From contig JAUNDG010000001.1 in the NCBI GenBank assembly GCA_030526195.1, positions 1-64,000 of the forward strand: 64,000 nt of DNA, written 5' to 3'. This DNA is from Lachnospiraceae bacterium (lineage in GTDB: Bacteria > Bacillota > Clostridia > Lachnospirales > Lachnospiraceae). This document shows, in pieces, positions 1 to 64,000 of this stretch (positions are counted from its first letter, which is position 1; the number at the start of each line of letters is the position of its first letter). Made by a program: the position numbers and the translations under genes. The notes beneath the pieces were generated by a model. The model was not told the origin of the DNA. It searched no databases and saw nothing but the letters and a program-made list of their open reading frames with translations.

Positions 1-188
1 CTATAAAAACCCTGTTATTAATATACCCTGTGTCCTTGACTTGGGGTGCACATTAGCGAAAAATGACCTGAAAATGACACTGGAAATCGCCAAAAACAGG
101 CATCTCCAGGGTCGAGGTGATAATTGTGAAAATGACATTGATTACATCACTCTTTATCCCGATTCAATAACATAATGAGAAGAAAAAA

Positions 189-215
189 GGCGATGCAGTT
201 TTGGGCTGCATCGCC
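189..215 (-). terminator. Rho-independent terminator of the NUDIX gene
   Basis: A perfect 10-bp stem (GGCGATGCAG / CTGCATCGCC) with a 7-nt loop lies 26 bp beyond the stop codon of the minus-strand NUDIX gene. It is followed on the minus strand by a T-run (AGAAAAAA on + at 181-188). A TTTT tract on the other side means it could work in both directions. Bases 1-188 hold no gene I can support, only two copies of GAAAATG (70, 128). Confidence 0.85.
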
Positions 216-240
216 TTTTGCCATATTGGTGATTTTGCGT

Positions 241-768
241 TTACACTTCGTACCCTTCAGCCTCAAAGGCCTGGAGGATGCGTTCGTAGTGCAGGAAGTT
301 TTTGTCAGCGGCCTGTTTCCGGATCTCATCGAAGGGCACGATGGCGAAGTCGATGGCTTCGGAGGCTTCGATGGTGACATCATCTTCAGTGAAGTCCATA
401 TGGAAATGATAAATATCCACGAAGTAGTTATCGCCTCGATCGAGGTCCACGTTTGAATAGGTGTAGACGCAGCGGCCTTCGGCACCGGAGATATCCAGGC
501 CGGTTTCTTCTTTCACTTCCCGGAGCACGGCATCATAAGAGGTTTCACCGGCCAGAACACCGCCACCGGAAACCTCCCAGGCACCGGCGGCCCATTTTTT
601 ATTGAGGGAGCGGCGGGTGATGAGGAACTTGTGGTCCGGGCGTTCAATAAGAGCCAGAACGATGAGCTGATATTCGCCCTCCTGCAGACGGCTGCCCTTG
701 CGCGGCAGGGTGCGGCCGGTTAATTCTTTTTTGTCATTATAGACGTCAAAATATTCCATTACTTCCAT
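241..768 (-). CDS. NUDIX hydrolase
   Basis: A 175-residue NUDIX-family hydrolase, expected to cleave a nucleoside diphosphate linked to another group. The Nudix box is complete: GGGVLAGE, seven residues, then REVKEETGL, fitting Gx5Ex7REUxEExGU. The N-terminus (MEVMEYFDVYNDKKELTGR) resembles the Idi/YfcD-like subgroup, which often acts on isoprenoid or nucleotide-sugar diphosphates; the exact substrate cannot be read from the sequence. The start at 768 is chosen because AAGAAGGG lies seven bases upstream; a second ATG three codons on is less well spaced. The gene is monocistronic, with a terminator just downstream and the EamA gene diverging on the other side. Confidence 0.9.
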   Translation of the reverse strand: MEVMEYFDVYNDKKELTGRTLPRKGSRLQEGEYQLIVLALIERPDHKFLITRRSLNKKWAAGAWEVSGGGVLAGETSYDAVLREVKEETGLDISGAEGRCVYTYSNVDLDRGDNYFVDIYHFHMDFTEDDVTIEASEAIDFAIVPFDEIRKQAADKNFLHYERILQAFEAEGYEV

Positions 769-1128
769 GGGATGTCCCTTCTTTACTTTTTTATTCGAAC
801 TTCATTTCATTGTATAGAATATAGAGGTTCCATGCAAGTATCGTCCGCTTTCAGCGCGTCATGTGAAGCGGAATTTTCGAACTGCAGCGAGCATTCCCTG
901 CTTCAAAGACGTAGTGTCTTAAGCGGGGGTTACGGTGAAGAATGTCCCTCGCGCTGTTAAGTCGGGAGCCTGTCAGCCTTGATTTTTTGACGCGCGGACG
1001 TATCCCGGCGTACGGGATTCCGCAATTCTGCGGGTTTGTTTGCGCTATGCCCTCTCTTCATGTAGAATAGAAAGTGTCATGCAAATCCTGCGGGATTGGC
1101 GGGCATGAGTTTTAAACAAGGAAGTTTT
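769..1128. other. 360-bp intergenic region with two hairpins
   Basis: No gene is supported here; a 62-codon frame at 772-960 is unlike any protein I recognise. The region holds a hairpin at 844-872 (TCCGCTT / AAGCGGA) and a second structured element at 897-927 (CCTGCTT, CAAAGAC, GTAGT, GTCTT, AAGCGGG). The second is one of four related copies in the window (the others are at 55.27, 55.38 and 55.59 kb). The distal end carries a promoter for the EamA gene. Confidence 0.6.
1040..1068 (+). promoter_or_regulatory. Sigma-A type promoter for the EamA transporter
   Basis: TTGCGC (1040-1045) and TAGAAT (1063-1068) are separated by 17 bp, 60 bp upstream of the chosen start codon. This is a pattern match by eye; the -35 is imperfect. 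Confidence 0.5.
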
Positions 1129-2010
1129 ATGGAGAAACCGGCAACACTCGCAGTCATCGCCGCCGGGTGTCTGTGGGGCATTATCAATCTGTTTGTGAAG
1201 GAAATGGCGGCTGCGGGCCTTTCGGCTCTGCAGATTTCATTTTTACGCGTGTTGGTGGCGACGGTCATCCTCACCGTATTTCTGGTACTGAAGGACCGAT
1301 CGAAGTTTCGCATCGCTTTAAGAGATATCTGGATGTTTGTGGGAACGGGCATCATCAGCCTCGTGCTTTTCAACACCTGCTACTTTTACGCGATGATTCA
1401 CGGGCAAGCCTCTGTGGCGGTGGTGCTTCTGTATACATCGCCGATTTTTGTGATGTTGATGGCCGCGCTCCTTTTTAAGGAACGGATCACGAAGCTGAAG
1501 GTGGCGGCGCTCCTTATGACATTTGCGGGCTGCATTTGCGTGGCGGGCATTCTGGGCAGCAGTTACGCGCTGCCGCCTATAGTGCTTGCGGCGGGACTCG
1601 CCTCCGGATTTCTCTACGCGCTGTATACCATTTTCGGCCGCTATGCTCTGGCGAAATACGACGCCATGACGGTGACCGTGTACACCTTCATTTTCGCATT
1701 AGCCGGCCAGGTGGTGGTCTGCGATGCCCGAGCGGCCTGCGCTGTGTCATTTTCGTCAATGAAAATGATCCTGCTGACGCTGGGTATCGGCGTTTTCAGC
1801 ACGATCCTGCCCTACGTTTTGTATACCTGGGGGCTGGCCTTCGTCGAATCGGGGAAGGCGGCTATCCTGGTGGCGGTGGAGCCGCTGGTCGGGGCAGTGA
1901 TCGGCATGACGGTTTTTCGCGAGAGCCATGATCTTATCAAGATTCTGGGAATCGGCCTTATTCTGTGCGCTATTATGATGCTGGGGCGCCGTGAATCGAA
2001 GACATCATAG
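1129..2010 (+). CDS. EamA/DMT-family transporter
   Basis: A drug/metabolite-type transporter of about 293 residues with ten predicted hydrophobic segments and the two-fold EamA repeat. The N-terminal motif AGCLWGIINLFVKEM and the second-half motif YTWGLAFVESGKAAILVAVE are typical of the family. It should export or import small metabolites across the cytoplasmic membrane; the substrate is unknown. The ATG at 1129 is preferred because AAGGAAG sits five bases upstream, although in-frame ATGs exist at 1096 and 1105. The gene appears to be transcribed alone. Confidence 0.88.
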   Translation: MEKPATLAVIAAGCLWGIINLFVKEMAAAGLSALQISFLRVLVATVILTVFLVLKDRSKFRIALRDIWMFVGTGIISLVLFNTCYFYAMIHGQASVAVVLLYTSPIFVMLMAALLFKERITKLKVAALLMTFAGCICVAGILGSSYALPPIVLAAGLASGFLYALYTIFGRYALAKYDAMTVTVYTFIFALAGQVVVCDARAACAVSFSSMKMILLTLGIGVFSTILPYVLYTWGLAFVESGKAAILVAVEPLVGAVIGMTVFRESHDLIKILGIGLILCAIMMLGRRESKTS

Positions 2011-2160
2011 ATGTTTTCAGATGGAAAAGTGAAACATATATTTTTGAAAATGGTTGCGCATTCTGATGGATAAGCGAACCGGGCTTAAAAAATGGCTTTC
2101 GTTTCCGCCGGGAGACGGAGCCGGGGAACCTGCTGTATTTCATATGAAGAGGGAATGAAC

Positions 2161-8169: not shown

Positions 8170-8475
8170 ATGGCAAGAACAGCAAATGTCTTCGTTCGTG
8201 TTGAACCGGAAATTAAAGAACAGGCTGAAAGCGTATTAGATCAGTTAGGAATTCCTATGTCAAACGCAGTGGGGATGTTTTTACGTCAGGTCGTATTGCA
8301 AAACGGTATTCCGTTCGAAATGAAATTACCCAGAACAAAACCTTTGGCATATCAATCGCTTTCGAAAGCGCAGTTTGATATGGAGATTGAAAAGGGCATT
8401 TCCGATGTAAAAGCCGGTAGAGTTTTTTCGGCAGATGATATCGAGAATGAAATGAAGAAAGAGTTTGGCTTATGA
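8170..8475 (+). CDS. relB: RelB/DinJ family antitoxin
   Basis: A 101-residue ribbon-helix-helix antitoxin. It begins MARTANVFVRVEPEIKEQAE and continues LGIPMSNAVGMFLRQVVLQNGIPF, the classic DinJ/RelB DNA-binding region, with a C-terminal toxin-binding tail (SDVKAGRVFSADDIENEM). It has an ideal AAGGAGG ribosome binding site, and its stop overlaps the start of the relE remnant by 4 bp (ATGA), the usual coupled arrangement. It looks intact, while its toxin partner has lost its C-terminus, so it may now be an orphan. The region is more AT-rich than its surroundings, which suggests horizontal transfer. Confidence 0.92.
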   Translation: MARTANVFVRVEPEIKEQAESVLDQLGIPMSNAVGMFLRQVVLQNGIPFEMKLPRTKPLAYQSLSKAQFDMEIEKGISDVKAGRVFSADDIENEMKKEFGL

Positions 8476-8694
8476 TTTTTCAGGTGAATTATTCAGCTGA
8501 AGCTAGATTAGATCTGAAAGACATATACGAGTATATAGCATATGAGCTTTTAGCACCGGAAGCTGCGGCAGGCCAGACCAGGCGTATTATGAAAGCGATT
8601 CGTTCACTTGAACAAATGCCGGAAAGACACAAATTGTATGAAGAAGAACCATGGCATAGTCGAGGGTTACGCGTTTTTCCGGTTGATAATTATC
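8472..8694 (+). pseudogene. relE: RelE/YoeB-family toxin, 3'-truncated and fused in frame to cas3
   Basis: The first 74 or so codons encode a RelE/ParE toxin: FQVNYSAEARLDLKDIYEYI, LAPEAAAGQTRRIMKAI, LEQMPERHKLYEEEPW, GLRVFPVDNYL. The normal continuation (a strand with the catalytic tyrosine/arginine region and the C-terminal tail) is missing. Instead the frame runs directly into Cas3 sequence (LDQWLTESGAYAFTSRLSM). The break is near base 8694. RelE toxins cut mRNA in the ribosomal A site; loss of the C-terminal strand should inactivate it. The whole frame runs 8472-9620. Confidence 0.85.
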
Positions 8695-10617
8695 TGCTGG
8701 ATCAGTGGCTTACAGAATCTGGGGCATATGCATTTACATCCAGATTATCGATGGCTGAATTAAAGACATTAGCAGGTTGTTTAGCTATCTTCCATGATTA
8801 TGGAAAGTCCTCTATGCTGTTTCAGGCAAAAATATCAGAATCATGCGAAGTGTTGAAAAATTCACTTGAAAACAGCGCGCTTTTTGTATTACCAAAAGAT
8901 GATGTAATGCTTAGAGATTCAAATAAAATGCCGCACGGTGTTGCCGGCGAAATCCTGCTGTTGCTGAAGGCTTGCAAACCTTCTATCGCGGCTATTGTTG
9001 GTGCTCATCATGGTAAGCCTTGGGAACAAGGTGCTGAAATCAGACTCCAAATTGAAGAACTATTGGAGGATGATGGGTTTTCTGAAGTTGTTCGTCAGTT
9101 TCAATATAGTCCGCTTCTTTGGGGTAAGAAAGCAAATCGAAATACGTGGATTGAGACGCAAGATGAGTTTTACGAATGGGCATTGTCAGTTGTTGGTATT
9201 ACTCAGGTGAGTCAGTTGCCTGATATTTCCGAGTCAGATGCAGTTATACTTGCCGGACTTGTTGTTATGGCAGACTGGCTTTCCAGTAATGAAGAGCATT
9301 TCCCTTTGATAGAATATCATGGAGCTTCTTGTGTTGACATAGAGCAGAGAGCTAAAGTCGGCATAAGTAAGATCAATCTTCCAGCCTGTTGGCATCCGAA
9401 GTGTGACAGGGATTTTGAAAAAATGACCATGGATCGTTTTGGGTTTTTGCCAAATTCAATTCAAGTGGAAATAATGAAGACAGTCGCAGAAAGTGAGCAA
9501 CCTGGCCTGGTTATTTTGGAAGCACCAATGGGGATGGGAAAAACAGAGGCCGCTTTATTGGCGGCAGAAGAGTTCTCAGAAAATCGAGTATTCGGATTGT
9601 TCACGGAATGGCAGCCTTGAATCGTGAATATCAAGAGTTAATTGGAAAAGAGACTCGAGGATGGCAGGGAGTGGACGATCAAGATGATAACCGTTTGATA
9701 GTTCACGAGTTTTTCAGAGGTAATAAGCAGGCCTTATTGGCGGATCTTGTCGTTGGTACAATCGATCAGATTCTTTTGGCATCGCTAAAACAGAAACATT
9801 TTATGCTCCGACATTTGGGTTTGTGCGGCAAAGCAATTATTGTCGATGAATGTCATGCATTTGATGCCTATATGAATGAATATTTGGACCGAACATTGCG
9901 CTGGTTAGGAGAATATCGAACACCGGTTATTTTGTTAAGTGCTACGCTTCCGTATGAAAGACGAGCTGATCTGGTAAAAGCTTATCTGGGAGAGGAAAGA
10001 AAGTGTCATGAGGATGAACAGTGGCAAAAATCTTTAGGCTATCCCTTATTAACTTGGACAGATGGAAATCAGGTATGCCAGAAAAACCTTGAATACACAG
10101 GCGATAGCAGACATATCATTATCAACAAGGCTATTCAGACAAATGTCCCGGATGAACAGATTGATGCTACTATTCAGGTGCTAGATGACCAGTTGTCACA
10201 AGGGGGCTGTGCCGGTATATTTGTGAACACAGTTAGTAAAGCTCAGCGGTTTGCAGATATATTGAAACAGAAGTGCCCAGATAAAGAAGTGCTATTGTTG
10301 CATTCGCGTTTTCTGGCAACAGAGAGAACTAAAAAGGAGATGAAACTGTTAAAACTCCTTGGGAAAAAGTCGACAAAAGCCGACCGTGATGGGGTTATTT
10401 TGGTAGGCACGCAGGTTATTGAGCAATCACTGGATTTCGATGTTGATATTATGGTGACAGAGCTTTGCCCAATGGATCTTCTGTTGCAACGTATTGGACG
10501 ACTGCATCGGCATGCGCATCATGATCAAGAGCGCCCGATTAATTTGAAACAGGCAACATGTTATGTTTTAGGAACAAATGGCGAGTTGGATAAAGGTGGT
10601 TCAGCGGTCCCTGACCC
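8695..10617 (+). pseudogene. cas3: Type I CRISPR-associated helicase/nuclease Cas3, broken
   Basis: A decayed cas3 in two frames. Frame one (to 9620) holds part of the HD nuclease domain (CLAIFHDYGKSSMLFQAKI), IVGAHHGKPW and the helicase Walker A region (LEAPMGMGKTEAALLAAEE), then stops at FTEWQP. Frame two (from 9608) resumes with ADLVVGTIDQILLASLKQKH, the DEAH-like box IIVDECHAFDAYM, LLSATLP, VGTQVIEQSLDFDVDIM and the QRIGRLHRH motif. The first HD histidine is lost with the 5' end, motif Ib is missing around 9600, and the C-terminus is replaced by CRISPR repeats. The rest of a type I-E operon (cas8e, cse2, cas7, cas5, cas6, cas1, cas2) is absent. I see no route to a working interference complex. 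Confidence 0.9.
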
Positions 10618-10621
10618 TCGA

Positions 10622-10833
10622 ATATTCCCCGCGCATGCGGGGGTGATCCCTCCATATATTCAAGGTCGTCTGAATTGTGCGCATATTCCCCGCACAAGCG
10701 AGGGTGATCCCAGATATGGGTTCTTCTTGAACTTTATGTATGAATATTCCCCGCGCATGCGGGGATGATCCTCGAATGATTGGGAACGACCTTTTCACAA
10801 AGTCATATTCCCCGCTAGGCGGGGCAAAATGGT
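10622..10833 (+). CRISPR. Remnant type I-E CRISPR array, 4 repeats and 3 spacers
   Basis: Four 29-nt repeats start at 10622, 10683, 10744 and 10805, an exact 61-bp period, giving three 32-nt spacers (10651-10682, 10712-10743, 10773-10804). Repeats share ATATTCCCCGC at the left and a short GCGG/GGGG arm with TGATCC at the right, the hairpin type usual for subtype I-E. Repeats 2 and 3 carry substitutions and repeat 4 keeps only the left half and GGCGGGG, so it is the degenerate end. The array begins within the reading frame of cas3, so everything normally between cas3 and the array has been deleted. Confidence 0.93.
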
Positions 10834-14527: not shown

Positions 14528-14574
14528 AAAAGTATTAGAAAGTGTCATACCCCATTTTCGGGAGAGAATACGAT

Positions 14575-21105: not shown

Positions 21106-21183
21106 CACAAAAGTGATATGCAAAAATCCACGACCGATTTGGCGCCTATTGCGTCTTGTTTCGGCCGTGGATTTTTTGTTATG
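21106..21183 (+). repeat. 78-bp direct repeat, left copy, containing a terminator hairpin
   Basis: This 78-bp sequence recurs at 22139-22216 with only two differences by my alignment (offset 1033). Inside it AAAATCCACG and CGTGGATTTT pair, with ACCGA/TCGG inside, followed by TTTTTTG, so each copy is a terminator, possibly bidirectional. This copy ends the TtcA-like gene's transcript. Confidence 0.9.
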
Positions 21184-21809: not shown

Positions 21810-22113
21810 CGAATATTACATCGGGAAACTGAGGACGGATCTTCGTTTCATTGTGGATCATATGAAGGATGTGACGGATAAAGAACTGGCAGAAAATGAG
21901 GTTTTGCTGGATTCTATGTTATTTCGTATGATCCAGATATCCGAAAATGCCCGCAAACTATCGGATGCGTATAAGGAACATCGAACCGAGATTCCCTGGC
22001 ATGCTCTCTATGGTCTCAGAAATCGTATTGTTCACGATTATGGAAATGTGGATCTGGGAGTCGTGTATGCAACGTTAAAAAATGATATTCCGGAATTGAT
22101 GGAGTGTATCTGA
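21790..22113 (+). CDS. HEPN-domain (HepT/DUF86-like) toxin RNase
   Basis: A protein of about 107 residues, all-helical. The HEPN active-site motif R(X)4-6H is present as LRNRIVHDYG near residue 80, preceded by the FRMIQISENARKLSDAY helix. HEPN toxins of this type cut RNA and are inactivated by the partner MNT protein through oligo-AMPylation of the tyrosine next to the HEPN motif (here DYG). ATG 21790 is used; the upstream ATG 21775 sits directly on the GGAGG. Both genes lie between 78-bp direct repeats. Confidence 0.88.
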   Translation: MDNVKNDEYYIGKLRTDLRFIVDHMKDVTDKELAENEVLLDSMLFRMIQISENARKLSDAYKEHRTEIPWHALYGLRNRIVHDYGNVDLGVVYATLKNDIPELMECI

Positions 22114-22337: not shown

Positions 22338-22505
22338 ATGGGTGAACTGCGCGCATTTTGGTGCGAAGAAGATGGTGCTGTGACGGTGGAGGTCATCCTG
22401 GTGCTGCTGGTGCTGATCGCGTTGGTGTTGCTGTTTAAAAAGCAGCTGATTTCAGTGGTTAACAGCATTCTGTCAAAGGTTTCCGATCAGAGTGATTCCG
22501 TTTGA
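22338..22505 (+). CDS. Flp1-like type IVb pilin
   Basis: A 55-residue protein with an acidic N-terminus (MGELRAFWCEEDGAVTVEV), then one hydrophobic helix (ILVLLVLIALVLLF) and a short tail. The G-A-V-T-V-E context just ahead of the helix matches prepilin peptidase cleavage sites (G followed by a hydrophobic helix with E at +5). Such small Flp proteins form the filament of Tad pili. AAAGGAGG lies seven bases upstream of ATG 22338. It overlaps nothing and is followed within 2 bp by a DUF5702 gene. Confidence 0.8.
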   Translation: MGELRAFWCEEDGAVTVEVILVLLVLIALVLLFKKQLISVVNSILSKVSDQSDSV

Positions 22506-22506
22506 A

Positions 22507-24111
22507 ATGAAAAAAGGCAGTGTGACGATCTTTCTAAGTCTGCTCCTGATGATCATGCTGTCGGTGGTGATGGTGTCTGTTTTCTGTGTGAAGGTGGCAG
22601 CGGATCGGATGATGCTGGCGAACGCGGCGGACCAGTCGATGTGGTCCCTCTTTGCCCGCTATGACAGGGATCTGCTGGAAAAGTATGATGTGTTTTTCAT
22701 CGATGCCGGTTGTGGAGAAAATACCCTCAATATGGCCGGTCTTGTGGATGAACTGACCGATGCGGCGGAAGCGGTTTTGAACCCGGCAGAGGGTCAGCTG
22801 CTGCCGGTCGGCAATCAGCCTCTGTCTGTCAAGGTGGACACGGTGGCGGTGACATCATACACACTGGCCACAGATAACGGGGCGTATGTTCTGGCTGACG
22901 AAGCTATGGCGTATATGAAGGAAACAGCTCTTTTGCAAAGTGCCGGAGCGCTGTTGGATTATGTTGGTGATACGGCTGCTTCTGAAGCCGAGCATGCCGC
23001 CCAGATAGCGGAAAATGCCGAAAATGGTGCGCCTTCCGATTTGCCGGAGGGCACAGAAGATGCCATCGCGTCTGCCGCATCCGGTGGCACAGCAAGCGAG
23101 GCTGGTGGTGATTCTGACACTCACGGCGGCAATCTGGATGTCGGTGATGGTGGTTCTCAGAACGACAGCGCCCAGGGGGCGGAAAATGTCGCTGCATCAG
23201 GCGGCAGTAGCATCGAGGCGGAGGCCGGGGTGTCGGCATCGGATGTATTTAAGAGTGTGATGAGCTACAAGAAACTGCGTTCTTCGTCTGTTCTCAATCT
23301 GGTGTGCCCGGACCCGTCGGCGGTTTCCGGTAAAACCCTGAAGGGCTCTGCGCTTTTCAGTGCCCGTCAGGCTGAGACCGGGATGGGGTATGCCTCTTTA
23401 GAAAATGATCCGTCTTCTGTCTCAGGGCGCTTGCTTTTAAACGGATATATCACTGCCCACTTCGGTCATTTCGGGAAACCGGAGGCCGGGCCGGGGCTTG
23501 ATTACCCGTTGGAGCAGATTCTGCAGGGGAAGAACAGCGACATTGATAATCTGCAGGCTGTGGTGAACAAAATCCTGATGATACGGGAAGGTATCAATTT
23601 TCTGTACATCCGGCAGACACCGGCCCTGTCCGCCCAGGCGGATGCGGCGGGCATGGTGATCGCAACACTTTTGCTGAATCCGGAACTGGCCGGTGCTATA
23701 TCGGCCCTCATCGAAGTGGGCTGGGCTTATTGCGAGAGTCTTTTGGATGTGAGAACACTGCTGGCCGGCGGCAAAGTGGCGGTGACAAAGTCACCGGCTA
23801 CCTGGCAGCTTGGCAAAATGACTGACATGATCACGCTGTCCTTCGATATGGATGCTTTGCGAAAGCCCGCCGTTTCAGGCATGACCTACGAGCAGTATCT
23901 GATGCTGCTTCTCAACCTGGTGAGCACCGATACGAAATGTCTGCGGATGGCCGACATGATGGAGCATGAAATACGAGCCTCCGGACGTGAGAACTTTTGT
24001 ATCGATCATTGCCTGAATGCCATCGGCATAGACATGACGGCCACGGCGGAAGGTAAGGTTATATTGACGGCCGAAAAGAATGGCAGTTATCGGGATTATG
24101 CGAAGTCGTGA
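22507..24111 (+). CDS. DUF5702 Tad-locus protein
   Basis: A protein of about 534 residues. It begins MKKGSVTIFLSLLLMIMLSV, a type III-like signal/pseudopilin-style helix, followed by ANAADQSMWSLFARYDRDLL and EKYDVFFIDAG, the hallmarks of DUF5702 proteins found next to TadE/Flp genes in Clostridia. The middle (about residues 155-250) is a low-complexity Ala/Gly/Ser/Asp-rich linker. It should be membrane-anchored and extracytoplasmic. It is coupled to the upstream pilin gene (TGAAATG), which explains the lack of a good ribosome binding site. Confidence 0.8.
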   Translation: MKKGSVTIFLSLLLMIMLSVVMVSVFCVKVAADRMMLANAADQSMWSLFARYDRDLLEKYDVFFIDAGCGENTLNMAGLVDELTDAAEAVLNPAEGQLLPVGNQPLSVKVDTVAVTSYTLATDNGAYVLADEAMAYMKETALLQSAGALLDYVGDTAASEAEHAAQIAENAENGAPSDLPEGTEDAIASAASGGTASEAGGDSDTHGGNLDVGDGGSQNDSAQGAENVAASGGSSIEAEAGVSASDVFKSVMSYKKLRSSSVLNLVCPDPSAVSGKTLKGSALFSARQAETGMGYASLENDPSSVSGRLLLNGYITAHFGHFGKPEAGPGLDYPLEQILQGKNSDIDNLQAVVNKILMIREGINFLYIRQTPALSAQADAAGMVIATLLLNPELAGAISALIEVGWAYCESLLDVRTLLAGGKVAVTKSPATWQLGKMTDMITLSFDMDALRKPAVSGMTYEQYLMLLLNLVSTDTKCLRMADMMEHEIRASGRENFCIDHCLNAIGIDMTATAEGKVILTAEKNGSYRDYAKS

Positions 24112-24246
24112 CAGTACACCGTAGCCGATAATGAAGCGCAAGTAGCGAAGTGCAGTGCGGGTGTCCGCTTTACTACAGCTGTGGCGCGCGTAAGAAGAGA
24201 AGCGGACTGTGCCCGTGAAAATCAATTCGACAGGAGGTGAGTGGAG

Positions 24247-25089
24247 GTGCTTTCAAACGTGAACAACTGTTATCAAGATTATTTGGAGCCTTCTTTTCAG
24301 TCATACCCCTTGAATCCTCAAAAATCGGGCGAAGGCATTTCCGCCCGCCTCCTGTCAAAGGGTTCCGTCACGGTGGAGTGTGCGCTGGCATTGCCCTTGT
24401 TTTTTCTGGCGCTGGCGATGCTGATCGCCTTTATGAATGCCATCGGCCTTCAGGTTTCAGCCAGTCTTGAACTGGCCAACCGGGCGAGGCGTTTGTCGGA
24501 AGCTGCCTATATGGTGGCGGGAGGCGCAGCTGAACAATCGGCATATGCCACTGATGAGTTAAATGGAGAAAGCCGCCAAACAGCCGGTAATCAGGCTCAT
24601 GATAATGGCTGGATTGATCTCACACAAACAAAAACCTATCGTTTCCCGGTATCTCTGATACCAAACGCAGGCATCGCTATTGCCGTGCGGGCTCGGGTGT
24701 ATCCCTGGATCGGGGCACCGGAGGGCGGCCTTGGCGGTGATGGATTTGCCGCCGGGGACGGAACGGAAATGGTTTATGTGACGGAGAATCAGGAGGTGTA
24801 TCATACCCATGCTGATTGCACGCATCTTGATCTTTCCGTCAAGACAGCAACGCTTGCGGAGGTGGCTCATTTGCGCAATGCCTATGGCCAAAAGTATAAA
24901 CCCTGCAACGGGTTTCCGAAGGATTACACCGGTCCGGTATATCTGACAGAAAAGGGGGATTGCTATTATCCCTCACCCTTTGATCATGCGCTGGTGCGGC
25001 ATGTCAAACTGGTGAAGGCATCGGCGGTGGAGGGGCTGCCTTTGTGCAGTCGTTGCGCCGGGAGAGGCGGTGACCATGCAGCCGCATGA
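24247..25089 (+). CDS. TadE-like pseudopilin with cysteine-rich C-terminal domain
   Basis: A protein of about 280 residues. After a 40-residue leader comes KGSVTVECALALPLFFLALA, the TadE motif with E at +5 from the glycine. The C-terminal third has a Cys/His pattern (VYHTHADCTHLDLS, YKPCNGFP, LPLCSRCAGRGG) that may bind metal or form disulfides. TadE proteins are minor pilins of Tad pili. The start is GTG; 24247 is nine bases from AGGAGG while GTG 24241 is only three away. It overlaps the prepilin peptidase gene by 14 bp. Confidence 0.8.
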   Translation: MLSNVNNCYQDYLEPSFQSYPLNPQKSGEGISARLLSKGSVTVECALALPLFFLALAMLIAFMNAIGLQVSASLELANRARRLSEAAYMVAGGAAEQSAYATDELNGESRQTAGNQAHDNGWIDLTQTKTYRFPVSLIPNAGIAIAVRARVYPWIGAPEGGLGGDGFAAGDGTEMVYVTENQEVYHTHADCTHLDLSVKTATLAEVAHLRNAYGQKYKPCNGFPKDYTGPVYLTEKGDCYYPSPFDHALVRHVKLVKASAVEGLPLCSRCAGRGGDHAAA

Positions 25090-25663
25090 CGGGATCCTCA
25101 TCATTTTTTTGTTTTATCAGAGTCTTAGCGATATGCGGGATCGGGAGGTTGATCTGACGGTTTGTGGCGTCACGGCTTTGACCGGTGTCTATTACAGAAT
25201 TCTGGTGTTCCCGGAAATGGATCGCATTTTCTGTTTCCTCCCCGGCATCCTGGTGTTAGCCCTGGCGCTCATAACGAGAGGCAAGGTCGGACTGGGCGAT
25301 GCCTGGATCATTCTGATTATGGGTCTTTTAGTGCCCGGTATCACGACAATGCTTGTTCTCATCGTGGCCTGCCTGGCCCAGTGTTTGTGGCATGTGGTTT
25401 TATTCTGTGGACAGCGCATCACTAGCCGACGATATACCAGTTGGAGGAAAAATGTCATTAGCCGACAACGTATTTTCAGTCGAGAAACCGTAAATGGTCG
25501 CCAATTTCATGATGGCCGGGGCGTGGGCATGAGCATGAGTCATCAACCGTGTGAGGTGCAAGTGGCCGCCAACAATAAACAAACACAGGTCCCTTACGAG
25601 TATCCCTTGGTGCCCTTTTTGCTACTGGGGTATTGTCTGTGTCTTCTTTTGAAATACATCTGA
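25076..25663 (+). CDS. Prepilin peptidase (A24 family, TadV/CpaA-like)
   Basis: A protein of about 195 residues with several membrane segments. The two catalytic aspartates of A24 peptidases are visible: SLSDMRDREVDL near residue 17 and the GxGD motif GKVGLGDAWIIL near residue 75. It should cleave the leaders of the Flp- and TadE-like proteins encoded on both sides. A hydrophilic insertion follows about residue 115 before a last hydrophobic segment (YPLVPFLLLGYCLCLL). GGGAGAGG lies upstream of ATG 25076. Confidence 0.85.
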   Translation: MQPHDGILIIFLFYQSLSDMRDREVDLTVCGVTALTGVYYRILVFPEMDRIFCFLPGILVLALALITRGKVGLGDAWIILIMGLLVPGITTMLVLIVACLAQCLWHVVLFCGQRITSRRYTSWRKNVISRQRIFSRETVNGRQFHDGRGVGMSMSHQPCEVQVAANNKQTQVPYEYPLVPFLLLGYCLCLLLKYI

Positions 25664-25695
25664 AAATGAGTTTTCTTACCGGCGGAGGTGTGTGC

Positions 25696-26157
25696 TTGGG
25701 TAACAGAGATGGTTCGGACAATCGCAACAATTCGTATTCTCATCAACCGAAGAAGGTTATGTCTCAACAATCCGATAACGCTATGAGACGAAAATGGTCT
25801 GTGAAAAAAGCTTCGGCAACAGTCGAAACGGCCATGGTAATCCCCGTGATCCTGATCGTGGTTTTCGGCCTTCTCTATCTGGATTTCCACACGCAAAACA
25901 GCATGGTCTGTCTGAGTGCGGCGGCGGAGCAGGCAATTTCCGGGCAGACTCACGAGGATCTCGTGACCTTCGGCAACCGGCCCGTGCGGGGTATTTCAGA
26001 AGATGCGGCCTCCCGGACGGTGAGTTTTGAGACCTCGATCCGCACCATTTACGGCGCCTATCAGCGCACCAGCCGTCACGAAGCCTCCTATGACAAACTG
26101 TATCCGGTGAGCTTTATCCGAAAAATGAAGACGGTTGGCGATATATTCGGGTCATAG
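25696..26157 (+). CDS. TadE-like pseudopilin
   Basis: A pseudopilin with KKASATVETAMVIPVILIVV, the TadE-type helix with E at +5, after a hydrophilic leader, then a short extracytoplasmic domain ending KMKTVGDIFGS. It is probably a minor pilin matured by the adjacent peptidase. The start is uncertain: TTG 25696 has GGAGG seven bases upstream, while ATG 25666, 25759 and 25783 are in frame but poorly served. It follows the peptidase gene directly. Confidence 0.75.
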   Translation: MGNRDGSDNRNNSYSHQPKKVMSQQSDNAMRRKWSVKKASATVETAMVIPVILIVVFGLLYLDFHTQNSMVCLSAAAEQAISGQTHEDLVTFGNRPVRGISEDAASRTVSFETSIRTIYGAYQRTSRHEASYDKLYPVSFIRKMKTVGDIFGS

Positions 26158-26178
26158 CAGGCGGAGGTTAAGGCGAAT

Positions 26179-28137
26179 ATGAATCAGAATATATCAATCA
26201 GGCTCCGTTTTGATGAGCGACACGAATCCCTGTGGGTGATGCCCGCATTATCAGGGTATACGACAGAATCAGTTGCTGCTGAGGACCCTGAGGAATTGGG
26301 AAGTTCGACAGTTGTGGCACAGGGGACGCAAGACAAAAAAAGCGATTTTGAGGAAACCATGTTCCTCACCTGTCGGATTCCCGGCCTTCTGCCCGTGCGG
26401 AAGGGGGAGTGGAACGGCTCCCCGGTCTACGTCTATGATATCCGGGGGTGCCGTCCTTTTTTAGAAAATGACGTTGCCGGCCTGCCGATGACTCATTTTC
26501 TAAAACACCTGTCTGCGGCGGAAATGGCGCTGCGGGATTATCTTCTGTCAGAAAACCATCTCTATCTGACGGAGGAGACGGTTTTTATTACGGATAAGGG
26601 AGCTGTGCTGTTTGTGTACGTGCCATTTTTTGAGGCATCTCTTCAGGCTTCGGTGCAAAGTTTTGTGCAGCAAGTGGCTAAGAGGAGCGGTCCGGAGGCT
26701 GCCGGCTATCGCTTTGCAGAGGAACAATTAAGAAATGGCGCCGATTGGAAGCGCGTGATGGCACAGGACCAGAGTGCGCCTGTCAACGTCTGTCAGAGGG
26801 AACCGGTAAACGGACTACAAAGCACTTCTGCGAACGGCTGTCAGAGTGAATCGGTAAATGGGCCACAAAGCACTTTTGCAAATGGCTATCAGAGTGAATC
26901 GATAAATGGGCCACAAAGCATTTTTGCAAATGGCTATCAGGGCGGTCCTCTGGATCGTCAACCTTGTGCCTCTTCAGAATACTTATCTGGACAGCAAAAC
27001 CGTGACATGGGTGATGTAACATGCCGATGCGATAACAATTATGCGCATGCAGTCGGAGGCAAGGGTGCACATTCATATGCCGGCTTCGCATCAGATGAGG
27101 ATGACGGATTGGATGCGCATCGGTACGATGAATCCGATGCGGTAGCGCGTGGAAAAACAGTAAAACGAAAAAATGGGCGGTCGGAAAATGCCGGCGGACC
27201 CGGGAAACGAAAAGGCGGCCTTTCGATCGTCAAGGTGATAGGCCTGGCTCTGTTTTTCCTCGGGCTTATCTTTGCTGTATTTATGGCTTTGCAAAGCGGT
27301 GTGCTGAATGATCTGACACCGGAATCCCTTTTGGAAATGGCGCTGTCTGTGCCGGCTCTCATCAGCCTTAACCCGCTGCCGTTTGTGGCTGGAGCTGTGG
27401 TGGTGTTGGCTGTCATTCTTCTGGTCTTCAGAATGATGAGAAGGCGAAAAAAGCAACAAACAGCATATGAATCTAAGAGTGGTCGGGAGAATTATCGGCA
27501 TGAGGGAACGGAGAATTCCCGGAAAAACTTCCGGAGCGATGAGAGAAAGAGTGGCCGGGAGAATCTGTGGGACAACAGACGAGACCCTGCATCAGAAGGG
27601 GCATGGCAGGAAACGAATGAAAAGAGGATGGATATCGGAGGTGCCGGCGTCCCCGGGTCTCCTTATATGGCCGGGAATAACGATGATACATTATCAGAGG
27701 ATTTTTCCTGGGTTCTGGGGGACATGACTGCCTATTTTGATACTCCTGAGTCTGCTCCTCCGCAGGTTTCGGATGATGGGCCTCTATCAATGATGGCATC
27801 CGGCAGAGCCATGCACGACACGAGGGGTGAGCAACTGAAACTTGTTATGGAGGATGCGGCGGGAGCACCGGGGGTGGTCTATGACATTTTGCCCTATCGG
27901 ACCATTATCGGGCGCTCGCCTGAGGCAGCGGATATCCGGCTGGACAGCAAAACCGTCAATCCGGTTCATGCGGTGCTGGAACGGCAGGGGGATGAGCTGG
28001 TGATTTTTGATCTCAATTCCCGCAACGGCACCCGCGTCAACGGACAACAGCTCATTCCGGAAATGGTGTGTCCGCTGCGCCCCGGCGATGTGATTGAAAC
28101 CGGAGCATTTTCTTTCCGCCTTAACCAGACATCGTGA
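26179..28137 (+). CDS. DUF6382 and FHA domain protein of the Tad-type locus
   Basis: A 652-residue protein. Residues 1-190 match the DUF6382 type (LTCRIPGLLPVRKGEWNG, DYLLSENHLYLTEETVFI). About 210-260 is a low-complexity region of tandem 16-residue repeats. One or two membrane segments follow near 350-410 (VIGLALFFLGLIFAVFM, FVAGAVVVLAVILLVF). The C-terminus is an FHA domain (YRTIIGRSPEAADIRL, NPVHAVLE, DLNSRNGTRVNG) with phosphothreonine-binding residues conserved. The protein probably links a Ser/Thr kinase signal to pilus or secretion function. GGCGGAGG is upstream. Confidence 0.82.
   Translation: MNQNISIRLRFDERHESLWVMPALSGYTTESVAAEDPEELGSSTVVAQGTQDKKSDFEETMFLTCRIPGLLPVRKGEWNGSPVYVYDIRGCRPFLENDVAGLPMTHFLKHLSAAEMALRDYLLSENHLYLTEETVFITDKGAVLFVYVPFFEASLQASVQSFVQQVAKRSGPEAAGYRFAEEQLRNGADWKRVMAQDQSAPVNVCQREPVNGLQSTSANGCQSESVNGPQSTFANGYQSESINGPQSIFANGYQGGPLDRQPCASSEYLSGQQNRDMGDVTCRCDNNYAHAVGGKGAHSYAGFASDEDDGLDAHRYDESDAVARGKTVKRKNGRSENAGGPGKRKGGLSIVKVIGLALFFLGLIFAVFMALQSGVLNDLTPESLLEMALSVPALISLNPLPFVAGAVVVLAVILLVFRMMRRRKKQQTAYESKSGRENYRHEGTENSRKNFRSDERKSGRENLWDNRRDPASEGAWQETNEKRMDIGGAGVPGSPYMAGNNDDTLSEDFSWVLGDMTAYFDTPESAPPQVSDDGPLSMMASGRAMHDTRGEQLKLVMEDAAGAPGVVYDILPYRTIIGRSPEAADIRLDSKTVNPVHAVLERQGDELVIFDLNSRNGTRVNGQQLIPEMVCPLRPGDVIETGAFSFRLNQTS
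26812..26943 (+). repeat. 48-bp in-frame tandem repeat
   Basis: About 2.7 copies of a 48-bp unit encoding GPQSTFANGYQSESIN-like blocks inside the DUF6382/FHA gene. The frame is kept, so copy number can vary without breaking the gene. Confidence 0.8.
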
Positions 28138-28953: not shown

Positions 28954-29009
28954 AGTTGAGACGAGCCGGGAAAACCATTTTCAAAAATGAGATGGGTGGC
29001 CTGGTGTGC

Positions 29010-47478: not shown

Positions 47479-49962
47479 ATGTTTGTAAGAAAGTTGATAA
47501 GAGTGATCGTCTTCCTGGCGGTTTTCCTGACGGGTGTGATCACTATCTCCGGTTTTATCGGAGCAGAGGAAATTAAAACAGCGTCGGATCTGACAGATCC
47601 GACGCTTCCTGTCATGTGTATTGATCTGGACGGCATGAAAGCCGACCGGATGTATGGCTATCGGGAACTGATGGATGCGGAGGACCAGAGGGATGCGTTG
47701 ATCCCCGTTGGGGCCGACCGCCAGATCAGTGTGTCCTACAAGACCTTCGGCCACAACATCCGATCCGTGTCCTATGAGGTGACGGCACCGGATACCGGGG
47801 CCGTGGCCGGTAATGCCCAGATCGGTAATTTCAAGGTGGACGGCGATTATATGACCGCCACCTTTACTTTGAATACCGCGATTTTGATGAATCGCGAGTA
47901 TCCTATCCGGTTTACCCTGAAAACCGATCAGGGTGAAATCTATTATTACGGCCGCCTTATCCAGCGGTCCACCAACCGGGCGGTGGATTACGTGAAATTC
48001 GTCAATGATTTTTACGAAACCTGCCTCAACAAGGATGGCGCTTCAGGTCTTAACATTTATCTGGAAACCGATGAGTCCGTGACCACACGGTCCTTCACAA
48101 ATGTGTCCCTGAAGTCTACCTTCGACCAGGTCACCTGGGGCTCTTTGAAGCCCTCGATCTTAAGACGGGCGGTGCCCACCATCACAGAGATCAATGACAA
48201 CACCTGTTCCATCACCTCCACCTATCGGCTCAGCGCCGTGAATGATGAAGGGGAGACGGAAGTCTACAAGGTGTCGGAATTCTATCGTCTGCGGTACACA
48301 CCTTCCCGTATGCGCGTGCTGGATTTCAACCGCAGCGCCTCTCAGATCTTTGATCCGGAAAATAACAGCATCATGACGACCACCGGTCTTAAGCTGGGCG
48401 TGGCCTCGCGGGACGTGTCCTTTGTGACAGACGAAAGTGCCGACATCGTGGCCTTTGTCCGGGAGGGCAGTCTGTGGCTTTATAATGATCGAGCTCAAAA
48501 GCTCACCTGCGTCTTCTCCTTCCGCCGGGATAACGGGGAGGGGGATGAACGCTTTGACAATGATGATTACGATATCAAGGTCATCCGTGTGCACGACAAC
48601 GGTGATATTGATTTTGTTGTATACGGCTACATGAGCCAGGGCCATTTTGAAGGCCGCCAGGGGGTTCTTGTGTGCCGCTATCTGGGACAGAACAGTGTGG
48701 TGGAGGAACGAGCCTTCATTCCGGATACCTGTTCTTATGAGTATTTAAGAAATGATCTGTCCCGCCTCAACACCATTTCCGAAAATGGTTTCTATTACGG
48801 CTACATCGACAATGCGGTGTACAAGGTGGATCTTGCGAGCAAATCCTATGAGACCGTGGTGACCGGTGCGGATCCGGAATGCTTCGTTTCCTCAGAGGAT
48901 GATACTGTTATCGCCTGGATGGATGAGATGAAGCCCCAGGCTTCGACCGCCATCACCGTTTATAACGTGGAAACCGGAGAAAGCCGTCGGATCGAAGCGG
49001 CAGAAGGCACGTACATCAAGGCCCTCGGCTTCATCAACAATGACTTTGTTTACGGCATCGCTGCGGCAGCTGACCTGCAGAAGGATGCCACCGGCAATCT
49101 GGTCTTTGCCATGAACCACCTGTCCATCGAGGATACGGCAGGCAACGAGGTGCTGACCTATGATAAACCGGGCATCTATGTGTCTGACGTGAGCATTTCC
49201 AACGGTCTTATTGAAATGACTCGTGTGGTGAAGGATGCGCAGGGGCAGTATCAGCCCACCTCATCGGATAACATCATGAACAACCAGTCCAAGGCTGAAC
49301 GCATGGTGACCGTGAGCAGCAACTCCAACAATCGTCAGGGACGTGTTGTGACCCTGACCATGCCGGGCACCGTGAGCAACATGAAACCGCTCATCACCAC
49401 AGCCCCGCACCGTCTTGACAGCGACTCCATTACTGTGAAAGTGGAGCGCTTCGACAGTCCGGCCTGCCTTTATGATGTTTACGGCGGCGGTCATCTGGTG
49501 ATGGTCACATCATCACCGCGGAAAGCCGTTGTGGCAGCGGATGACAATGTGGGCGTGGCCCTCAACCGGGAAGGCCAGTATATCTACGAGCGCGGCAACA
49601 CCGCGGATCAGAATGAGATCGCCAATGAGGACATTCCGGAGATTTTCAAATCCGGCACCATGGATCCGGCCACCCTTCAGGAAGCTCTTGGTGAAAATGG
49701 CACGGTTCTCGACCTGTCAGGCTGCTCGCTGCAGCAGGTGCTGTATCAGGTGAGCCTGGGCCGTCCGGTGCTGGCCCGTCATGCCGATGGCGGCACAGCC
49801 CTTATTGTGGGGTATAATCAGTACAACACCCGTCTTTACAACTTTGAGACAGGGGAACATTACTGGTTCGGTATCAATGACAGCACGGCGGAATTTGCCG
49901 CCGGCGGCAATGTTTTTGTCACTTTGATCACGCCGGACAAAACGATTCGCGAGAATCGGTAA
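47479..49962 (+). CDS. Large membrane-anchored extracytoplasmic protein with C39-like C-terminus
   Basis: An 827-residue protein I cannot assign. One N-terminal membrane segment (about residues 5-28, [20 protein letters not shown]) precedes a beta-rich body in which blocks of [16 protein letters not shown] and [20 protein letters not shown] type suggest a propeller-like fold around residues 310-560. The last 100 or so residues ([39 protein letters not shown]) look like a C39-type papain-like domain with a Cys-less or shifted nucleophile region. It is probably a surface protein. It starts 16 bp after ntpD without a strong ribosome binding site. Confidence 0.7.
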
Positions 49963-51637: not shown

Positions 51638-52228
51638 ATGATTTGTCCTAATTGCGGAAAAGACGTGATGGATGGCAAGTTCTGCACAAACTGCGGTTGT
51701 GCCATGCCGGCCCCGGCACCTGTTGCTGCGCCGGATCCGATGCCCGTTGTCCCGCCGACACCGGCACCGCAGCCCGAACCGACACCGGCCCCTCAGTATG
51801 AACCGGCTCAGTCCTTCGAGCAGCCCACATTCGACAGCGCCCCGAATTATAACGAAGGCCCGTCCTTCGACAGCGCACCGAACTACAACGAAGGCCCGTC
51901 CTTCGACAGCGCGACGAACTACAACGAAGGCCCGTCCTATGACAGTGTGCCGCACTATCAGGATGTCCCGCCGTATGACTTTGAACCGGAAGAACCGAAG
52001 AAGGCCGATGGCATGGCCATTGCCTCCCTGGTGTTGGGTATCCTTGGTTTCTTCCTGCCGATCCTCTGGATCGTCTGCGCGATCCTGGCCATCGTTTTCG
52101 GTAAGATTTCTCTGAACAAACGGCCTGTGGGCAATGGTCTGGCCAAAGCCGGTATGATCTGCGGTATTATCGCCCTGATCTTAGGCATCCTCACCAGCAT
52201 CGCCTGCGTGGCCTGCAACCTGATCTGA
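51638..52228 (+). CDS. Zinc-ribbon DUF4190 membrane protein
   Basis: A 196-residue protein with an N-terminal zinc ribbon (MICPNCGKDVMDGKFCTNCG), a Pro-rich linker, four 12-residue repeats (FDSAPNYNEGPS type, about residues 65-110), then two membrane helices in a DUF4190 domain (MAIASLVLGILGFFLPILWI, GMICGIIALILGILTSIACV). It is an integral membrane protein of unknown function. AAAGGAG precedes the ATG. Confidence 0.82.
   Translation: MICPNCGKDVMDGKFCTNCGCAMPAPAPVAAPDPMPVVPPTPAPQPEPTPAPQYEPAQSFEQPTFDSAPNYNEGPSFDSAPNYNEGPSFDSATNYNEGPSYDSVPHYQDVPPYDFEPEEPKKADGMAIASLVLGILGFFLPILWIVCAILAIVFGKISLNKRPVGNGLAKAGMICGIIALILGILTSIACVACNLI
51830..51962 (+). repeat. 36-bp in-frame tandem repeat in the DUF4190 gene
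   Basis: Three near-identical 36-bp units and a diverged fourth encode FDSAPNYNEGPS-type blocks. The frame is preserved, so expansion or contraction would not disrupt the gene. Confidence 0.85.
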
Positions 52229-61324: not shown

Positions 61325-61363
61325 GGGGCGCGAGTCTGCTTTACTGCTGGGAGAAGACCATTT

Positions 61364-62047: not shown

Positions 62048-62064
62048 CACGAAGGAGGTTCAAT

Positions 62065-62751
62065 ATGTTCTGGGATAATATCATGTCAACACTGACAGCG
62101 GCTTACACAGCCGGCAGTATGCTGACACTTGTTTTAAACTCACTGGCTGCGCTGGTGCTGAGCTTGCTGGTGTTCCTGTCTTACCGTCTCACTTATACGG
62201 GGACAGCCTTCAGCAAGAAGTTCATGATCTCACTGGGGATGATGTCACTGGTCACCACCATCATCATGAATGTCATTTCCAACAACGTGGCTCTGTCCCT
62301 TGGTATGGTCGGTGCCCTGTCCATCATCCGTTTCCGTACCGCGGTGAAGGATGTGCGTGATGCCACTTACATTTTCTGGTGCATCGCCATCGGTGTGGCC
62401 TGTGGTGTCTCCTTATATGCTCAGGCGCTGGTGGGTTCTGTTGTGATCTTTGTTTTCCTGCTGGTGTGCGGTCAGGTCCACACAGAGGGCCGTTACCTTC
62501 TGGTGATCCGTGGCAATGCCGAGTCCCGCGGCCGTGTGGTCAATGCCGTGACCGGTTATTTCAAAAATACAGCCACTCTGCGTTCTCAGACCATTACGGC
62601 GGAGAGAGGCGACCTCATTTTCGAAGTCAGCGCCCGTGCGCTTAAGAAATACAGCGCCAGCCGCGGCAGTTCTATCTGCGAGTCCCTGGTGAAGATCGAC
62701 GGCGTTGAAAGTGTTGACCTTGTTCAGCAGACTGACGATATCAGCCGTTAA
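62065..62751 (+). CDS. DUF4956 membrane protein
   Basis: A 228-residue protein with four membrane segments in its first half (SLAALVLSLLVFLSYRLTYT, SLGMMSLVTTIIMNVISNNV) and the DUF4956 signature SIIRFRTAVKDVRDATYIFW, then a cytoplasmic alpha/beta domain. It always travels with VTC and CotH genes in Clostridia. AAGGAGG lies upstream of the ATG; it is 13 bp before the CotH gene. Confidence 0.88.
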   Translation: MFWDNIMSTLTAAYTAGSMLTLVLNSLAALVLSLLVFLSYRLTYTGTAFSKKFMISLGMMSLVTTIIMNVISNNVALSLGMVGALSIIRFRTAVKDVRDATYIFWCIAIGVACGVSLYAQALVGSVVIFVFLLVCGQVHTEGRYLLVIRGNAESRGRVVNAVTGYFKNTATLRSQTITAERGDLIFEVSARALKKYSASRGSSICESLVKIDGVESVDLVQQTDDISR

Positions 62752-62763
62752 GGAGATGATACT

Positions 62764-64000
62764 TTGCGCAATAAAATTATTGTGATCATAGCCTGTCTGG
62801 CGGCTATCGCCGGCATCACCCTGCTGACGGGATATCAGAATATTATTGATCCCGAAGCAGCGGGCCGGGTGGAAGAGGAAAGCGGTCCCAAGGCCGGGGA
62901 CAATGTGCCCATGCCCTCTGCGGTGCCCGATCAGGTTTTTGAATCGAGCCTGCCTCTCATTTCCGTGGAAACGGACGGACAGAAGATTCCTTATGCGAAA
63001 TCGATCAAAGCCCGTGTGTATCTGTATGACAGCGAGGACGGATCCAATTCGATCGCTGATGAGCCGGTGGAAAAAATCCTGACGGATTTCCATTTCCGTG
63101 GGCAGTCCTCGGCCGTATTTGAAAAGAAAAGCTACGCCCTGGAATTCCTGAATGAAAATAAGGATGCGACCCGGGATGTGGCGGTTCTTGGCATGGCGAA
63201 GGGTCATGACTGGGTGCTGCATGGTCCGTACATGGACAAGGCGCTTCTGAGAAATTATTTTTCCTACACCATTGCCCGGGATACCATGTTTTATGCACCG
63301 GACAGTCGTTTGTGCGAGCTTTACATCGACGGGGCCTACGAAGGCCTTTACCTTCTGGTGGAAAAACCGCGCATCATGGAAACACGCATTAACTTTGCCA
63401 CAAATGCGGCGGCTGATGGGCATACCGCCTATCTGGTACAGAGAAACCGTGCGCAGGAGATCCAGGATTACGTGGAAGAATATGGTGAAAGACCCCGTCA
63501 GCCCGGACCGGGCGGTATTGATGTGGACACCGACTATCTCAATACCTACGGCAATCTGACCGGTCACGTGGCCTCGCCTCTTTACGTGGTCTATCCCACC
63601 ACAAATAAGATCACGGAGGCACAGTTCGGTTACATTGAATCTGATATCAGCGCCTTTGAACGGGCTCTCTACGCCGATTATTTCTGCGATGAGACAAGGG
63701 GTTACAAGGCTTATATCGACATGGATTCCTTTGTGACTTATTTTGTCTTAAATGAGTTTGCCATGAACGTGGACACCGGCTATTTCTCGACCTATTGCTG
63801 TCGGGATATGGAGGGGCGCCTTTACATGGGGCCTGTCTGGGATTTCAATAATGCCTATGATAACTACTCCGGCACGGCCTGCGATCCCGAGCAGGGATTT
63901 GTGATGGTGGACAACAACTGGTTTGCCCGTCTGTGTCAGGATAAGGCCTTCGTGGATGCGGTCATTGAAAAATGGCAGGAGCTTCGTCAGGGTGTCCTGG
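62764..64000 (+). CDS. cotH: CotH-family kinase-like protein, cut by the window end
   Basis: A reading frame open from TTG 62764 to the end of the window (412 codons seen). The TTG has AGGAG eight bases upstream. It starts with a signal/membrane helix (IIVIIACLAAIAGITLLTGY) and contains the CotH motifs FHFRGQSSAVFEKKSYALEF, HDWVLHGPYMDKALLRNYFS, LYIDGAYEGLYLLVEKPRIM, and GPVWDFNNAYDNYSG, which supplies metal-binding Asp/Asn residues. In Bacillus CotH phosphorylates spore-coat proteins. Here it is likely an exported or lipid-proximal protein kinase acting with VTC and DUF4956. The C-terminus is outside the window. Confidence 0.9.
   Translation, partial: MRNKIIVIIACLAAIAGITLLTGYQNIIDPEAAGRVEEESGPKAGDNVPMPSAVPDQVFESSLPLISVETDGQKIPYAKSIKARVYLYDSEDGSNSIADEPVEKILTDFHFRGQSSAVFEKKSYALEFLNENKDATRDVAVLGMAKGHDWVLHGPYMDKALLRNYFSYTIARDTMFYAPDSRLCELYIDGAYEGLYLLVEKPRIMETRINFATNAAADGHTAYLVQRNRAQEIQDYVEEYGERPRQPGPGGIDVDTDYLNTYGNLTGHVASPLYVVYPTTNKITEAQFGYIESDISAFERALYADYFCDETRGYKAYIDMDSFVTYFVLNEFAMNVDTGYFSTYCCRDMEGRLYMGPVWDFNNAYDNYSGTACDPEQGFVMVDNNWFARLCQDKAFVDAVIEKWQELRQGVL

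Follow-up and report, generated by a model that had tools for sequence, protein, structure and literature searches.

The Chi sites of AddAB and RecBCD are short, species-specific and overrepresented words, and in the uptake signal sequences (USS) of the Pasteurellaceae a core is extended by weaker flank preferences. Sequence-tagged DNA uptake has been named for two families, the Pasteurellaceae and the Neisseriaceae, in the accessible portion of one account (PMC5031613), and an extract from another places USS in 17–29% of Pasteurellaceae terminators (PMC1852404). Here we describe a seven-base word, GAAAATG (CATTTTC on the opposite strand), together with its near relative GGAAATG (CATTTCC), in a 64-kb stretch of clostridial DNA (positions 1 to 64,000 of Lachnospiraceae contig JAUNDG010000001.1, our C39; below, the window) and in the genome to which it belongs (G000; 2.54 Mb in 43 contigs, 96% complete, GC content 0.52 in the sampled part). 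It is close to certain that the signal is real and not codon-driven in this genome, and very likely that the word is present as several dialects in the genus. As to its cause, we tentatively favour an uptake-sequence-like self tag of a clostridial genus, driven by uptake or recombination. No report of this word, or of uptake sequences in Clostridia, was found among the literature matches listed, most subscription journals and preprints lying outside their coverage.

In the window, GAAAATG occurs 57 times and CATTTTC 33 times on the + strand, in good agreement with the original prediction, which had counted about 55 and 30 by eye, and the total of 90 makes it the commonest 7-mer there. GGAAATG/CATTTCC comes second with 74 copies, an enrichment that adds to the earlier observation. 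The expectation of roughly 7 that had been quoted is correct for base composition (6.8 for both orientations), but this null exaggerates the excess, Markov models of orders 2 to 5 giving 19.6, 28.5, 47.9 and 68.7; the high orders, for their part, take up the motif itself. The variant GAAAACG, put at about six copies, is found five times on the + strand and nine more times on the other. The word is present at all nine positions that had been quoted as intergenic, eight of which do lie outside called genes, some of them in other, probably spurious, open reading frames (ORFs), whereas the one at 14553 lies at a called-gene start.

Over the whole genome, GAAAATG is found 3,510 times (1,785 + 1,725), compared with 211 (109 + 102) for the reversed word, and GGAAATG 2,076 times (1,028 + 1,048), compared with 181 + 186 for its reversed control. 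Copy numbers of at least about 1,000, far over expectation, are a property of USS and of the DNA uptake sequences (DUS), and this genome has the highest word density among the 37 genus genomes compared. In a 437-kb sample, GAAAATG stands at 5.0 times and GGAAATG at 4.1 times the order-2 expectation. Among the 21 one-base variants of GAAAATG, GTAAATG (2.3-fold) and AAAAATG (2.0-fold) follow, and the other 18 besides GGAAATG lie between 0.6- and 1.5-fold; among those of GGAAATG, GGAACTG (3.2-fold) and GGCAATG (1.9-fold) stand out, the former dropping to 1.3-fold sense and 1.0-fold antisense under the codon null described below. The sites show no even spacing, since the counts in 5-kb bins are overdispersed (variance/mean 1.75), and the word is scarce in a stretch of small genes in L011.

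The Markov, codon-shuffle and non-coding tests covered samples of this genome, 437 to 517 kb in size, and the overrepresentation withstood all of them. The gene caller was a simple one (codon score) that misses some genes, so that a first 'intergenic' set was partly coding; the strict non-coding set consists of DNA without an ORF of at least 100 amino acids. When synonymous codons were shuffled within genes, GAAAATG was seen 283 times against 97 expected, CATTTTC 172 against 32, GGAAATG 155 against 61 and CATTTCC 175 against 34. A fuller null, which keeps amino acids, codon counts and the dinucleotides at codon boundaries (3-1), gives for the same counts expectations of 107.5 (GAAAATG) and 77.6 (GGAAATG) in the sense direction and of 43.1 (CATTTTC) and 44.5 (CATTTCC) in the antisense direction; the four z values are 11 to 23. 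In a scan of all 7-mers over 517 kb with this null, whose z values are inflated in G000 (spread 2.2), GAAAATG ranks first (525 versus 171) and GGAAATG second (386 versus 145). ORF-free DNA contains 43 copies of GAAAATG for 13.4 expected, about threefold, and 14 of GGAAATG for 7.8. The summed excess is alike on the two strands of genes (253 sense, 259 antisense), and outside called genes, between genes of the same direction, 64 sites run along and 59 against the gene direction. Thus, codon use alone is indeed insufficient, and the word does belong to both strands and to intergenic DNA, as had been proposed; occurrence in either orientation, within genes and outside them, is likewise a feature of DUS and USS. 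The absence of gene-strand polarity also bears out the earlier argument against a polar role, and a polar Chi or an FtsK-orienting polar sequence (KOPS) is rejected on this ground.

The preference for AAT before G after GAA, also noted earlier, is pronounced (GAA AAT G 190, GAA AAC G 11; before other bases, AAT 49 and AAC 85) and is partly a general effect (AAA AAT G 59, AAA AAC G 8). Within genes, GAAAACG is depleted relative to the codon null in the sense direction (22 versus 65) and is seen 31 times versus 26 as antisense CGTTTTC; overall it is found 79 times for 77 expected, beside a GAAAATG surplus of 466. An origin through a single type of mutation, such as CpG loss at GAAAACG, is rejected because these sites are too few to supply the excess and because the substitutions seen between relatives are of many kinds.

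The genus is represented by 42 genomes including this one, and no other genus of its family was seen among the 61 genomes compared. Ranked best among the named relatives of a putative asparaginyl-tRNA synthetase ORF are RUG609, an uncultured Clostridiales bacterium (80%), and a Lachnospiraceae metagenome-assembled genome (81%); other Clostridia come next. Comparison with the related genomes revealed one-base dialects of the word. GCAAATG, one base off GAAAATG, reaches 3,156 copies in G028 (1,543 + 1,613; reversed word 157, 79 + 78), is likewise abundant in G001, G017, G025, G003, G004, G020 and G022, and is hardly enriched in G000 (146 + 142 versus 99 + 82). The full codon null was applied in the genus to samples of 14 genomes, several of them below 100 kb (G000, G026, G021, G011, G020, G015, G027, G028, G001, G017, G025, G019, G030 and G016). 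GCAAATG ranks first in G028 (100 versus 18.6) and G001 (27 versus 8.2) and second in G017 (30 versus 9.1) and G025 (50 versus 15.0), and GAAAATG is unenriched in G001 (9 versus 9.7). G019 is the reverse case, with GAAAATG in first place (83 versus 27) and GCAAATG at expectation (13 versus 12.8). The exclusion is not strict, since G028 also has GAAAATG at 54 versus 18 and G016 has GCAAATG at 21 versus 8.9. The top word is GGAAATG in G026 (299 versus 132) and AAATGAA in G011 and G016. No enrichment under the codon null was seen in samples of three of the 24 genomes from other families (G052, G057 and G043, representing three families of the order). Judged against the reversed word, GAAAATG stands at 2.0-fold or more in all 37 genus genomes compared, a loose comparison, as several of the 24 other-family genomes also give 2.1–3.6-fold (G058 3.6, G050 3.1, G043 2.7, G052 2.6).

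The dialects are clustered on the tree. This was built from 32 regions taken for V-type ATP synthase A/B (a name assigned by eye, as was that of the asparaginyl-tRNA synthetase), 30 of whose rows were scored, and a genome was labelled as C-dialect when 25% or more of the three words were GCAAATG, a cut of our own. The label falls on 7 of the 30 rows and requires 3 changes (bootstrap range 2 to 3), a number that none of 500 shuffles was low enough to match; G017 and G006 pass the cut yet have no row in the tree. Dialects that share a core and follow the phylogeny are a further property of DUS and USS. Here the core G-N-AAATG is fixed, its second base switches and the flanks are species-specific.

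The word itself is sharp and its flank preferences are weak. Beyond the codon null, both core words of G000 show a preference for T at positions −4 and −3, for C at position −1 and for G at position +12 (first G = 0); these weak preferences extend over about 17 bp, and that for T is stronger in the first, partly coding, intergenic set. Individual sites are not positionally conserved: 20% of 215 site-by-relative pairs (11 relatives) retain the word, compared with 15% for all 7-mers and fractions of 0.16, 0.17, 0.22 and 0.29 for four comparison word sets, and a position-specific regulatory role finds no support in these figures. A one-base-off counterpart stands in the relative in 48 of the 173 non-kept pairs, with 14 kinds of substitution and 15 transversions among the 48, counted without inferring the direction of change.

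These properties could be accounted for if G[A/G]AAATG were the local dialect of a genus-wide G-N-AAATG self tag. A sequence-selective step in DNA acquisition would favour word-bearing fragments, most likely through a surface or periplasmic receptor that binds incoming DNA and feeds ComEA and ComEC, and recombination of such fragments would gradually fill the chromosome, on both strands, within and between genes. Were the receptor specificity to shift by one base, the genome would follow, giving rise to dialects. In DUS and USS systems the word raises DNA binding, uptake or transformation, and a sequence-specific receptor of the ComP type reads it. That the position-2 base separates self from foreign in this uncultured genus, in a monoderm dialect system possibly run by a Tad pilus, we hold a shade more guardedly than the self tag as such. 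We infer the uptake or recombination driver, the receptor, and the replacement of a ComG-type pilus by a Tad pilus. Encoded in the genome are a ComEC of 871 amino acids, with DUF4131 and lactamase-B matches, an SLBB + HHH ComEA-like protein nearby, and DprA. Contig C20 encodes a prepilin peptidase, a T2SSE ATPase and two proteins of T2SSF type, one of them matched below the cut-off; these, together with genes of the window (Table 1), we read, from their family matches, as a putative Tad pilus. According to the title of a published study, DNA uptake in Liberibacters requires motility by the Tad pilus (PMC8513845). Of the three roles originally suggested, the uptake-type signal gains most, because of the dialects in sister species, methylation loses some ground for reasons given below, and an architectural role stays a candidate, all three being hypotheses.

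Several observations weigh against an uptake tag. ComEC is near-universal (33 of 37 genomes in the genus and 23 of 24 outside) and DprA is found in 40 of 42, so that their presence is uninformative. No PilT-family match over the cut-off was found in G000, which has solely a CpaF-like motor; 13 of 36 sisters do have one, and by eye the richest genomes include both kinds, so PilT was discarded as a correlate of word density. None of 23 terminator-like hairpins, from a simple scan of 44 kb of G000, has the word; a terminator role is rejected accordingly, and the inverted pairs that serve DUS and USS as transcription terminators have no equivalent among these hairpins. Some sisters give only a weak signal under the codon null (43 versus 20.4 in G021, where unrelated words rank highest; 12 versus 7.5 in G027; for GCAAATG, 23 versus 12.7 in G020), and unrelated words exceed that null too, for example CACCGGC in G000 (344 versus 170).

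Prophage DNA belongs among these points. Uptake is not expected to shape phages, and rarity of the word in resident phage DNA is therefore an expected, though not a firmly defining, feature of DUS and USS. Such rarity is not seen in four prophage pieces that adjoin portal genes, two of them from G019 and one each from G001 and G017, a small sample (42 kb in total) judged by a Markov null only: the host's word is present 23 times for 7.7 expected, roughly the host-level enrichment. Head and tail genes are confirmed in L250 and L251. The G019 pieces have GAAAATG 12 times versus 4.0 (10 of the 12 in L250), the G001 piece has GCAAATG 7 times versus 1.8, and the G017 piece 4 times versus 1.9, which is not significant. 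Words foreign to the host stay close to expectation (GCAAATG 3 versus 2.0 in G019; GAAAATG 3 versus 2.7 in G001 and 2 versus 2.8 in G017). Among related phages, 160 contigs of unknown hosts show no enrichment of the three words (1.1–1.4-fold, reversed controls 1.2–1.7-fold). The enrichment of prophage pieces in their host's word makes the pressure seem to act on resident phage DNA too. A long stay in a chromosome that recombines could account for this, but a repair- or protection-based driver does so more directly.

A repair-based driver, which we consider unlikely, though less so than the rivals that follow, would resemble that proposed for the cyanobacterial highly iterated palindromes (HIP). 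A DNA methylase or mismatch-repair protein would read the word, and repair biased towards its retention would ratchet up the copy number throughout the DNA that the cell replicates, that of prophages too, with dialects tracking changes in enzyme specificity. Such a ratchet would act alike on coding, non-coding and prophage DNA, could gain the word through any substitution and would allow dialects; the prophage pieces do bear the host dialect, and alternate HIPs with cognate methyltransferases and a repair ratchet have precedent in the text available from PMC4390886. However, the word lacks the palindromic form of a HIP. In addition, of two methyltransferase families that might suit a non-palindromic site, G000 has no PF07669 match and a single 48-position PF01555 match below the cut-off, PF02384, PF02086 and PF00145 not having been searched, and it is on this account that the methylation role loses ground. 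Across the genus, PF01555 is missing from 10 of 42 genomes (including G017 and G025) and has no match over the cut-off in 26 of 42.

We think it improbable that an abundant dimeric DNA-binding protein uses the words as half-sites in organising the nucleoid. Such a protein would fit the partly dyad-symmetric flank (TTnC-GRAA) and the directly adjacent inverted pairs CATTTYC-GRAAATG, 16 of which are found in 437 kb of G000 for 0.5 expected (0.54 per spacing); 12 of these 16, and 26 of 34 close inverted pairs overall, touch called genes. In G026, however, there is just one adjacent pair for 0.27 expected and the flank preferences differ, G026 being the sole relative with much sequence and the other samples too small to tell. 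The site positions are unconserved, and a single protein would require thousands of half-sites and repeated one-base switches.

Similarly improbable, and if anything a little more so, is a Chi-like word that would switch AddAB from degradation to recombination and so mark self DNA. AddA scores above its family cut-off in 38 of the 42 genomes, among them G000, as expected for Chi; the word is a short non-palindromic 7-mer that differs among species, and prophages bearing the host's word would gain protection. Against this, the gene polarity expected of Chi is absent in the counts given above. GAAAATG does prefer the G-rich strand (366 versus 227 in G000, 173 versus 94 in G026), as expected from sense-strand codon use, but GGAAATG hardly does (205 versus 192 and 176 versus 148), replication direction being approximated through GC skew only, and the flank preferences, like the adjacent inverted pairs, point to recognition of double-stranded DNA.

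Ordinary codon, dipeptide or mutational bias is very improbable and largely refuted: high-order Markov nulls do reduce the excess, AAT before G is partly general and unrelated words also exceed the codon null, but 2.0–4.0-fold remains when amino acids, codons and boundary dinucleotides are kept, ORF-free DNA retains its threefold excess, substitutions between relatives are of many types, and the nulls together with the dialects reject such bias as the whole cause. The remaining probability we leave to explanations that we have not thought of.

Table 1. Positions of the words, of word-bearing example sites and of putative pilus genes (window coordinates unless a locus is named)
Feature	Position	Strand	Remark
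GAAAATG/CATTTTC (90) and GGAAATG/CATTTCC (74)	1..64000	both orientations	spread window-wide; exact counts
Inverted pair CATTTTC-6 bp-GAAAATG	1748..1767		within gene
GAAAATG with upstream T run	2046..2052	+	outside called genes; example site
Part of putative Tad-pilus locus	22492..28137	+	Pfam matches; possible tie to the word
DUF5702 gene	within 22492..28137	+	Pfam; putative Tad-pilus gene
Prepilin peptidase	25070-25663	+	Pfam
TadE-like	25633-26157	+	Pfam match just under cut-off
DUF6382/FHA protein	26179-28137	+	Pfam
GAAAATG	28976..28982	-	outside called genes; example site
Adjacent inverted pair CATTTCC-GAAAATG (14 bp)	48774..48787		within gene; one of 16
Prophage pieces with own host's dialect	L250:1-11000, L251:1-12000

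The window has other repeats as well. Two 78-nt direct repeats, 97% identical (21106-21183 and 22139-22216), flank a nucleotidyltransferase/HepT-like pair (21324-21809, 21775-22113) that has the appearance of a toxin-antitoxin unit. Three repeats of about 30 nt with a spacing of 61 (10620-10771), and a further partial one to about 10830, adjoin ORFs for a Cas3 HD domain and a helicase, which lie in two frames (8472-9620, 9608-10768), and probably form a small or degenerate array of clustered regularly interspaced short palindromic repeats (CRISPR). A 62-nt tandem repeat of 3.8 copies (31930-32171) contains TGGACAG and may belong to a dispersed repeat family, since TGGACAG is found 59 times for 12 expected outside the called genes of the genome sample. 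Two further tandem repeats, of 36 nt (51830-51945) and 48 nt (26785-26940), lie inside ORFs.

Among known systems, the word shares with Chi a short, species-specific, overrepresented form and an encoded AddA, and differs in lacking gene polarity. It is like USS in its high density and in a core extended by weaker flank preferences, but the words are unrelated and the USS hosts are a Gram-negative family. Cyanobacterial HIP1 and the alternate HIPs, as far as the accessible text of PMC4390886 goes, show the same extreme genome-wide overrepresentation and lineage-specific replacement words; they are palindromic, GC-rich and tied to methyltransferases, whereas the word described here is AT-rich and non-palindromic, and the two methyltransferase families searched are absent or below the cut-off in G000. 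The DUS dialects of the Neisseriaceae, in the portion of PMC3630211 available, are likewise short, very abundant words with a fixed core and species variants that follow phylogeny. Here, unlike there, the host is clostridial, the word has seven bases with the core AAATG and is missing from the terminator-like hairpins found, and G000 has no PilT-family match over the cut-off. We therefore describe the word as working like a DUS dialect system and do not file it as a member, because three of the features tested are present, two are absent, and the uptake machinery is represented in part. If the self-tag reading is right, the Clostridia would provide a further case of uptake tags, with one-base dialects that switched two or three times within a genus, and it would become possible to test in new bacteria how uptake specificity arose, how molecular drive spreads it and what part it plays as a species barrier. 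A driver in repair, Chi or chromatin would instead leave a genome-wide word that differs in a single base from one sister species to another, and this too would need explaining. A seven-letter word present in thousands of copies, with a one-letter variant in some sisters, resembles the self-recognition tags of DNA uptake.

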